A stretch of DNA of 64,000 bases from Stenotrophomonas rhizophila. GTDB taxonomy: Bacteria; Pseudomonadota; Gammaproteobacteria; Xanthomonadales; Xanthomonadaceae. Made by a program: the position numbers and the translations under genes. The notes beneath the pieces are model-generated. The model did no database searches. It saw only the letters and a list, made by a program, of their open reading frames with translations, and had not been told where the DNA came from. How positions within the stretch are numbered: position 1 is the first letter of the stretch; every line of letters starts with the position of its first letter. Where the stretch lies: positions 1,109,605 through 1,173,604 of the forward strand of contig NZ_CP007597.1 of the NCBI RefSeq assembly GCF_000661955.1, in the 5' to 3' direction. Positions 10,333-13,448 of the stretch are shown in pieces.

Positions 10333-12135
<1,803 letters not shown>

Positions 12136-12218: not shown

Positions 12219-12258
12219 AAGCCAGAGCCGGAGCCGGAGCCGGAGCCGGAGCCGAAGC
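12219..12258. repeat. GGAGCC hexamer tract
   Basis: About six tandem copies of a hexamer read as GGAGCC (variants AGAGCC, CGAAGCC at the ends) lie just upstream of the first 53-bp-core element. Hexamers keep any reading frame, so apparent open frames through it are not evidence of a gene. Confidence 0.8.
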
Positions 12259-12281
12259 CCATGGTTTTCTTGCTGATGGTT

Positions 12282-12388
12282 GGCGTGGGGTGGGTGGGTT
12301 GGCGGGACACGCCGTAAATCCATCCCTGGAGGCTCGTGGGCGCCATCCATGGCGCCCAACGGTCCCGCCAACCCACCCACCCCACGCC
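12282..12388. repeat. inverted-arm element, copy 1 (53-bp core with 27-bp arms)
   Basis: A perfect 27-bp inverted repeat (12282-12308 and 12362-12388) brackets a 53-bp core (12309-12361). The core contains a smaller perfect hairpin, GGGCGCCAT-CC-ATGGCGCCC. The same core recurs in opposite orientation at 12786-12838 with one substitution, but with quite different arms. As RNA or single-stranded DNA it would form a long hairpin with a branched top. It looks like an interspersed non-coding element of this family of bacteria; its function is unknown. Confidence 0.85.
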
Positions 12389-12426
12389 CCGACAGTTTTC
12401 GGGTGCGCATGGGGGTAGAGCTGAAG

Positions 12427-12640
12427 GCAAAGGCGGAGCCGAGGGCAGAGGCTGAGCCAATGGCAAAGGCAAAGGCAGAGGCAGAGGCAAGGGCAAAAGG
12501 CAGAGGCAAAGGCAAAGGCAGAGACAAAGGCAAAGGCAGAGGCAAGGGCAAAAGGCAGAGGCAAAGGCAAAAGGCAGAGGCAAAGGCAAAGGCAAAGGCA
12601 AAAGGCAGAGGCAAAGGCAAAGGCAGAGCAGAAGCCAGAG
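12427..12640. repeat. degenerate GGCARA low-complexity tract
   Basis: About 210 bp made almost entirely of GGCAAA, GGCAGA, GGCAAG and AAGGCA hexamer variants, purine-rich on the plus strand. It reads as Lys/Ala/Gly/Glu repeats in one frame and Leu/Pro/Phe/Ala repeats on the other strand, which makes long but spurious open frames. It lies between the two inverted-arm elements. Confidence 0.85.
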
Positions 12641-12681
12641 CCGGATTTCTTTCGCCAATCGCTGGAAAAGGGGCCCAAAAC

Positions 12682-12713
12682 GCAGAACAGGCGCCACCGG
12701 GCGCCTGTTCTGC
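12682..12713. repeat. 14-bp perfect stem-loop
   Basis: GCAGAACAGGCGCC and its exact complement enclose the tetraloop ACCG. A pyrimidine-rich stretch follows on the plus strand (ATGCTTCTATCTCTTCCC), but no T-run. It may be a weak terminator for transcripts leaving the repeat tract or another REP-like hairpin. Confidence 0.6.
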
Positions 12714-12758
12714 ATGCTTCTATCTCTTCCCAACCGCCGGATGCACAAATCCATCTGG

Positions 12759-12865
12759 GCGAGGGTTCCAGCCCCTTGCCGGGACCGTTGGGCGCCATGG
12801 ATGGCGCCCACGAGCCTCCAAGGATGGATTTACGGCGTGTCCCGGCAAGGGGGTGGAACCCTCGC
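12759..12865. repeat. inverted-arm element, copy 2 (opposite orientation)
   Basis: Two 27-bp arms (12759-12785 and 12839-12865, one mismatch) bracket the same 53-bp core as copy 1, inverted (12786-12838). Only the innermost arm bases (GGGAC/GTCCC) and a few others agree with copy 1. The arms therefore vary while remaining complementary. The element ends 32 bp before the dps stop codon, on the downstream side of dps. Confidence 0.85.
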
Positions 12866-12896
12866 CGCGCGCAGATAACAGAAGCGCCAGCGAGAC

Positions 12897-13448
12897 TTAC
12901 TGCAGCAACGACCGCAACATCCAGGCGTACTTCTCGTGCGTCTGCAGGCGCTGGGTCATCAGATCTTCGGTGGGTGCGTCGTCGGCGTCGTCGGCCACGT
13001 CCAGCACCTTGCGCGCCGTCCGGCACACCGCCTCGTTGGCGGCCACCAACTGGCGTACCATCTCACGCCAGTCCGCACTGTCGGTCAGGCCCGGTTCCTC
13101 GGCGATCGAGGTCAGGGCCGCGAACTCGCGGTAGGAGCCCGGGGCATTGAAGCCCAATGCGCGGATACGTTCAGCGACGTCGTCCAGGGCTGCCCACTGC
13201 TCGGTGTACTGGGTCTCGAACATGGTGTGCAGCGAGTTGAACATCGACCCGGTGACATTCCAATGGAAGTTGTGCGTCTTCAGGTAGAGCGTGAACGCAT
13301 CGGCCTGGAACGATGCCAGCCCATCGGCAATCTTCTTGCGATCGCCTTCCTTGATCCCGATATCGATATTCGGGGCCGAAGGGGCGGCCGACGCCAGCTT
13401 CTGCTTACCGGTCTGGGTCTTCTTCACCGGTGTCTTGGTCTTCGCCAT
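12897..13448 (-). CDS. dps: Dps family DNA-binding protein from starved cells
   Basis: A 183-residue Dps-like miniferritin. A Lys-rich N-terminal tail (MAKTKTPVKKTQTGKQK) is suited to DNA binding. The ferroxidase region is visible: KTHNFHWNVTG carries the conserved His, and the helix FETQYTEQWAALDDVAERIRA carries the Asp/Glu ligands. It would form a 12-subunit cage that oxidises Fe(II) with peroxide and coats DNA under stress. AGGAGA precedes the ATG. The 88-bp divergent gap to hrpA has an AATAGATCAGACTAA stretch resembling part of an OxyR site, but not a full consensus. Confidence 0.93.
   Translation of the reverse strand: MAKTKTPVKKTQTGKQKLASAAPSAPNIDIGIKEGDRKKIADGLASFQADAFTLYLKTHNFHWNVTGSMFNSLHTMFETQYTEQWAALDDVAERIRALGFNAPGSYREFAALTSIAEEPGLTDSADWREMVRQLVAANEAVCRTARKVLDVADDADDAPTEDLMTQRLQTHEKYAWMLRSLLQ

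Follow-up and report, generated by a model that had tools for sequence, protein, structure and literature searches.

Why should two long palindromes lie in opposite orientation between recQ and a ferritin-like gene of Stenotrophomonas rhizophila, with arms that pair almost perfectly while their sequences vary from copy to copy? The locus (12282..12865) is part of a 64,000-nucleotide stretch of contig NZ_CP007597.1 that is referred to as a whole as the window. An earlier note on this DNA had described two inverted copies with paired arms and a single substitution in the core, and the coordinates (12282-12388 and 12758-12866) bear this out. The arms of copy 1 (12282-12308/12362-12388) are 27 nt long and 100% complementary, those of copy 2 (12758-12785/12839-12866) are 28 nt long and 96% complementary, 53 bp separate the arms in each, and the cores differ only at the free N of a loop ANGGAU. 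The window contains two matches to the core pattern, where 0.00 are expected. On balance, the copies are probably structured RNAs of the TwoAYGGAY kind that would be transcribed, bound at their two loops by CsrA/RsmA, and employed as scattered ligands of this regulator. The argument for this reading, and for the explanations that compete with it, is drawn from comparison of sequences.

The two copies, their surroundings and the family in the genome

The anatomy of the two copies and of their neighbourhood is collected in Table 1. Scores are those of a covariance model (R1) built on the strand carrying the GGA loops, with copy 1 among its members.

Table 1. Features of the recQ-dps intergenic region and its neighbours (window coordinates).
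Feature	Position	Strand	Basis or remark
Copy 1, GGA-loop strand	12282..12388	-	R1 128.4 bits vs 48.2 on opposite strand
Copy 1 external helix, 5' arm	12362..12388	-	Arm pairing and R1
Copy 1 external helix, 3' arm	12282..12308	-	Arm pairing and R1
Copy 1 hairpin 1, loop CAUGGAUG, GGA 12346-12348	12338..12357	-	Alignment, fold, R1
Copy 1 hairpin 2, loop CAGGGAUG, GGA 12323-12325, 5-nt bulge UUUAC	12311..12333	-	Alignment, fold, R1
Flank GACAGT.., common to most own copies, spacer side of pair	12391..12411	+	Read by eye
Spacer, copy 1 to copy 2, outward-facing pair	12389..12758	.	Locus comparison
Copy 2, GGA-loop strand	12759..12865	+	R1 117.5 bits vs 36.9 on opposite strand
Copy 2 external helix, 5' arm, 1 mismatch to 3' arm	12759..12785	+	Arm pairing and R1
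Copy 2 external helix, 3' arm	12839..12865	+	Arm pairing and R1
Copy 2 hairpin 1, loop CAUGGAUG, GGA 12799-12801	12790..12809	+	Alignment, loop count, R1
Copy 2 hairpin 2, loop CAAGGAUG, GGA 12822-12824	12814..12836	+	Alignment, loop count, R1
Ferritin-like gene	12897..13448	-	Pfam Ferritin PF00210; copy 2 lies 31 bp past its stop codon
RecQ helicase gene	10333..12135	-	Pfam RQC, HRDC, RecQ_Zn_bind

The ferritin-like gene is read here as Dps-type, and the recQ-dps intergenic region differs in both length and content among species. Copy 1 lies 146 bp upstream of the recQ start with its GGA strand codirectional with recQ, and its predicted fold has -91.9 kcal/mol (z -10.3). Between 12100 and 13000 neither a sigma-70-like promoter nor an intrinsic terminator (GC hairpin plus T run) was found, which counts against a transcribed RNA. 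Hexamer-type tandem repeats of AGCCGG and AAGGCA (about 33 copies) flank copy 1 on both sides (12220-12259 and 12424-12625), and by eye similar runs precede several other copies of the family. A perfect 14-bp hairpin (GCAGAACAGGCGCC/GGCGCCTGTTCTGC, 12682-12713) sits between copies 1 and 2.

The 4.65-Mb genome holds 47 matches to the core pattern (24 forward, 23 reverse), against none for a reversed-pattern control, and 56 matches to R1. Forty-three distinct copies from this genome (own copies) were printed, 34 of them with a closed stem; the other nine comprise seven with an enlarged hairpin 1, one with masked bases, and one with a shifted anchor. The degenerate copy L033 was dropped from the 34, leaving 33 for alignment. 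In the enlarged form about 83 bp are added, by eye as further hairpins with loops such as AGGA, and a loop count placed GGA in the core-nearest loop in six of the seven, the seventh lacking it. An insertion sequence interrupting the core of these seven copies was considered and dropped, because the added sequence can be read as a larger hairpin 1 bearing more loops, and because a congener has a plain hairpin 1 at two orthologous loci where the own one is enlarged (L322 (minus)/L019 and L319 (minus)/L004). At L322/L019 the 3' arm is identical despite the differing form of hairpin 1; hairpin 1 forms can be exchanged. One further own copy, L027, has masked bases (a run of N) within hairpin 1 and after them a second piece of the core, which may be a local duplication.

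Compensatory change, the folded strand and the loops

The 33 aligned own copies share a consensus with a 28-pair external helix, 98.4% of whose cells are paired, a hairpin 1 with loop CAUGGAUG, and a hairpin 2 with loop CANGGAYG and bulge UUYAC; RNAalifold returns essentially the same structure with 42 pairs. Compensatory change on both sides is seen in 32 of 41 pairs, and the covariation score (33 of the 43 own copies) is 0.650, compared with 0.152 ± 0.011 for shuffles and no more than 0.107 for a slid control. At arm positions 6-27 of 34 own copies, 92% are Watson-Crick paired, as against 52% after random reassignment of the 3' arms between copies (1000 shuffles, none above 62%), and at positions 28-40 pairing is 24%. 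Among named genomes, 86/116 copies have at least 17 Watson-Crick pairs in 24 arm positions, the maximum for swapped arms being 15. Within the own genome 37/43 copies stand at 21-24 pairs of 24, and swapped arms reach up to 21, a control that is less clean because own arms share letters. The alignments show that the predicted helices are kept by compensatory change, so that the earlier proposal of changes preserving pairing, made from two copies, is strongly supported. Two patterns named at the time as telling against it, cores mostly without complementary flanks and arms that are fixed duplicates, did not appear, as the count for named copies and the variation of arm sequences among copies make plain. 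The reading as a structured RNA is likewise strongly supported by the covariation together with a strand bias in the mismatches.

That bias rests on a simple logic: an intermediate that is G.U on one strand is A.C on the opposite strand. Arms were anchored ungapped by Watson-Crick pairs alone, with copies below 15/24 excluded, so that the method prefers neither strand. Counted on the GGA-loop strand, G.U to A.C stands at 23:1 for the own genome (37/43 copies used), 66:16 for named genomes (102/116 used), and 14:1 for the recQ-dps set (27/27 used); the mismatch cells are not independent events, which makes p values computed from them too small, but the direction agrees in all three sets. For G.A to T.C the named set gives 47:5 and the own set 2:1; the ratio of 3:14 in the 27 recQ-dps copies, which share ancestry, counts against the bias. 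G.U still exceeds A.C for copies with both neighbours antisense to the GGA strand (2:0 own, 13:3 named), and own copies are balanced in chromosomal orientation (24/23). Split by gene direction, the named set (loci below 66% GC) has the excess in each of its four classes and the own set in three of four, the fourth (four copies) being 1:1. The excess of G.U over A.C shows that it is specifically the GGA-strand fold that is maintained, whether in RNA or in single-stranded DNA.

Hairpin 1 formed no part of the search pattern, yet its predicted loop contains GGA in 106/116 named copies and in 35/36 own copies examined; the predicted loops without GGA (10/116 and 1/36) count against the reading. 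The two GGA are spaced 22-24 nt in 102/106 named copies, and the hairpin-1 stem has 35 distinct 5-nt starts in the named set. In the 33 aligned own copies, CATGGATG is invariant and the loop of hairpin 2 reads CANGGAYG. Across 23 ortholog pairs with a congener, the hairpin-2 loop N differs in 12, the adjacent A, G, G, A in none, and two other Y positions five times each. These comparisons show GGA being kept in the loops while stems and the letter N change. Against the 12/23 differences at N, the outer flanks diverge by about 2-12%, which points to a hot spot or to ectopic conversion among copies.

CsrA can bridge two sites about 10-60 nt apart, and the RsmE form of its motif is CANGGANG. Own copies present at least two ANGGA hairpin-loop sites at bridging distance. 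The CsrA/RsmA site is given as ANGGA (PMC9788540), and since an A, a free letter and GGA in a loop match this motif, we infer that own copies are transcribed from the GGA strand and bound by CsrA/RsmA. The gene csrA is present in 22/22 genomes tried, a finding that is necessary and uninformative. For RsmU of Xanthomonas, which binds RsmA in its authors' assays, replacing four GGA motifs is reported to have abolished neither binding nor effect (PMC7694677), and this result calls for caution in predicting CsrA binding from GGA.

In the mechanism proposed, the long external helix would close a three-way junction presenting two hairpins, whose loop ANGGA sites would lie about 23 nt apart. An RNA transcribed from the GGA strand would take one CsrA/RsmA dimer on its two loops, and dozens of copies would titrate CsrA/RsmA, act on the transcripts containing them, or both. 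The long helix would protect or define the RNA, and template switching between arms probably helps restore pairing; the arm sequences could vary freely, pairing being all that counts. A further version, conceivable though doubtful, is distributed titration, in which many small scattered transcripts, not one or two sRNA genes, would set the level of free regulator. Each element would offer two or more GGA-loop sites, the enlarged ones additional loops, and the helices would vary freely in sequence under selection for the fold, aided by copying from arm to arm.

Distribution, orthologues and competing explanations

R1 matches 32/61 relatives (E 0.001) and 26/184 genomes of the class in 25/164 genera (E 0.00001; own genome included), with at least 20 matches in 6/26 of these class genomes; an exact pattern was too strict for class-wide use (2/274). 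The core pattern is present in at least 119 stretches of named genomes and in one viral contig, and the core is found also in Yersinia, Xanthomonas, Rheinheimera and Methylomicrobium. The 80 listed matches naming a taxon below phylum are, as we take it, all gamma-proteobacterial, and two further listed matches name only Proteobacteria or Pseudomonadota; the best R1 score among the 80 named loci, 125.3 bits, belongs to S. rhizophila L121. A Saccharophagus MAG carries four tandem copies about 180 nt apart in AT-rich DNA (L101, 3105-3752; 33-41% GC). Within the genus (36 genomes including the own), nine genomes lack the element, two carry a single copy, one carries 15, and the remaining 24 carry at least 33, with no more than 62 scored. 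Of the nine element-free congeners, the seven tested all have csrA, which counts against the CsrA reading.

Copy number that is nearly all-or-none among congeners is what a non-autonomous mobile DNA might produce, its single-stranded hairpin being the target of an HUH-type or other recombinase as in REP-RAYT systems. Though unlikely, this explanation has several facts on its side beyond the strand polarity, which fits single-stranded DNA too. At least one element is present in 20/30 recQ-dps loci fetched (of 41 genomes, own included) and two in 14. In two-element loci the GGA strands point outward in 14/14, these loci being related by descent and not independent, and the own pairs within 1 kb are outward-facing and inverted in 6/6; the inner flank is shared. 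Eighteen near-identical copies fetched from genome G067 (L271-L288) ride inside a unit with terminal inverted repeats. The Y1/RAYT domain PF01797 was found in 13/13 element-bearing genomes tried, yet also in 7/9 element-free genomes, which makes the association with RAYT weak. Orthology points the other way: of 27 elements in 20 regions fetched from the congener G299 (out of its 56 matches), 23 could be matched to an own counterpart through the outer flank and one through the inner flank only, three having none, and these flanks show most examined copies to occupy the same loci across two species. Moreover, no clean pre-insertion (empty) site was found among the parsed, forward-oriented recQ-dps loci, and a free N beside a fixed A and GGA, like GGA in the loops of enlarged hairpins, is unexpected of such a DNA hairpin. 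The mobile element envisaged by the earlier note is thus a weak account of the present copies, most of which share their place with a congener, but in G067 the element is indeed the passenger of an amplified unit. That unit has terminal inverted repeats GAGGCCAGCAGCCTGTCGGACTT, and the element is embedded in it in either orientation.

The relation of the copies to genes bears on a different role, that of a 3'-end or processing hairpin whose helix would stabilise mRNA ends, block exonucleases, or provide an RNase III site in the manner of ERIC, REP or NEMIS-like elements, its loops being incidental. Genes are indeed close to the copies (a median distance of 128 bp on the outer side), 31 of the 36 named copies that face a gene end downstream on the GGA strand are no more than 83 nt from it, divergent intergenic regions are rarest (3/40 own, 9/55 named), and the fold is very stable. 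Such a role is improbable all the same: either strand would serve it, yet one strand is favoured in 4/4 named and 3/4 own classes, and loop letters are among the most conserved. Relative to the GGA strand, genes around own copies run in the same direction in 17 cases, opposite in 11, convergent in 9 and divergent in 3, by an approximate gene caller; around named copies the figures are 10, 18, 18 and 9, with 42/97 places overlapping an ORF by a crude length rule excluded. No strict mRNA sense orientation was found in either set, and gene direction gives no support to a simple cis-acting mRNA element; that the neighbouring genes do not follow the GGA strand also counts against the CsrA reading.

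In 22 of the 23 ortholog pairs (one mis-anchored pair was dropped), 17 paired columns have changed on both sides and are still Watson-Crick, and one-sided changes gave G.U 12 times, A.C four times and other mismatches 11 times, with three further mixed columns. Among the 18 near-identical G067 copies, six have changed arms, and four of these six already carry the matching change on the opposite arm, in one case a 1-bp deletion shared by the two arms. This is fast for independent mutation plus selection and suggests hairpin-templated copying from arm to arm, a process that the earlier note had raised, but that does not explain the G.U bias. Mutational upkeep of the palindrome by template switching or gene conversion without selection, with cores homogenised by ectopic conversion, would account for these mirrored and two-sided changes and for a loop N that outpaces the outer flanks, as allele exchange between copies predicts, but it is very improbable as the whole explanation, since it predicts G.U equal to A.C, which the observed bias contradicts, and leaves the same core in Yersinia, Xanthomonas, Rheinheimera and Methylomicrobium unexplained. 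Selection and arm copying are compatible; the G.U bias has no explanation among these other than selection acting on one strand.

The large number of copies in one genus supplies strand-resolved evolutionary evidence (G.U against A.C; a free N beside a fixed A and GGA), and the CsrA idea is directly testable. Near-identical copies are natural material with which to measure how palindromic arms remain complementary. If the reading as CsrA/RsmA-binding RNAs is true, the copies would form a dispersed class of ligands of this regulator in many gamma-proteobacteria.

Relation to known RNA families and repeats

The earlier note, which knew of no named family of this kind, was wrong on that point: TwoAYGGAY RNA (Rfam RF01731; Weinberg et al. 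2010, PMC2864571) has the same anatomy, and the Yersinia copy is entered in Rfam as Ysr224 (RF02770). The family connects these two Rfam entries, the latter being modelled on the opposite strand. As in TwoAYGGAY, own copies have two AYGGAY-type loops on one strand, both present, and a poorly conserved external stem around both hairpins, here of 28 pairs. In contrast to TwoAYGGAY, they are dispersed in tens of copies through one genome, often as inverted pairs, and possess a conserved bulge UUYAC, a closing ACGGCGU, and an enlarged form of hairpin 1. RF01731 has three sub-threshold matches in the own genome (best 31.4 bits against a cut-off of 43), the best being one of the family's copies on the predicted strand; at this loose cut-off 1/14 control genomes also matched. 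Of 12 other element-bearing genomes, eight have matches and two have them above the cut-off, as against 0/14 controls, and R1 matches both of the loci concerned on the same strand as RF01731, with 58.7 and 56.7 bits. The gathering score of 43 bits was reached by none of 17 named loci. Own copies are not filed as RF01731 members because they fall short of that cut-off; RF01731 and own copies can be read as one structural family that Rfam's threshold has narrowed.

Judged by its match, Ysr224 is this element as it occurs in Yersinia, but Rfam models the other strand, which counts against the CsrA reading. With 126.5 bits, the Yersinia similis locus alone among the 17 named loci passes the cut-off of 70; copy 1 reaches 32.2 bits on the + strand. 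The Rfam model differs in representing the strand opposite the GGA loops and only part of the helix, and its strand or ends may be wrong. At L141 (7863-7994) the model lies on the strand without the GGA loops and stops short within the helix. Ysr224 is listed among the 20 most prevalent bacterial sRNAs in a survey (PMC9029176), and in Y. ruckeri several copies are described as transcribed, with differing expression (PMC12112432). For TwoAYGGAY, a CsrA link has been proposed from motif matches (PMC4333381), and the RNA has been called still relatively unexplored (PMC11661157). Among the titles and opening lines of abstracts that were listed, there is no account of this dispersed family in Stenotrophomonas or Xanthomonas.

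MicroRNA and other Rfam matches were sub-threshold and due to the long hairpin. The CsrA-sequestering sRNAs of the CsrB/RsmZ type and RsmU of Xanthomonas likewise carry GGA motifs in hairpin loops, but are encoded by single or few genes, as against dozens of copies here. RsmU had no Rfam homologue (PMC7694677), and CsrR1/CsrR2 of Alcanivorax are presented as other RNAs (PMC9788540). With REP/BIME, SMAG of S. maltophilia (PMC2613905) and ERIC (PMC2267715), the element shares the character of dispersed intergenic palindromes that are often paired. It is several times longer than SMAG, and its arm sequences are not conserved; by eye, the own alignment has no GTAG-type REP tag at the arm ends of the 107-bp element. 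Nor are there terminal inverted repeats conserved between copies, as in a MITE, the arms being complementary without conservation of their sequence. Set against these systems, the element is a dispersed variant of a known, unexplained RNA family.
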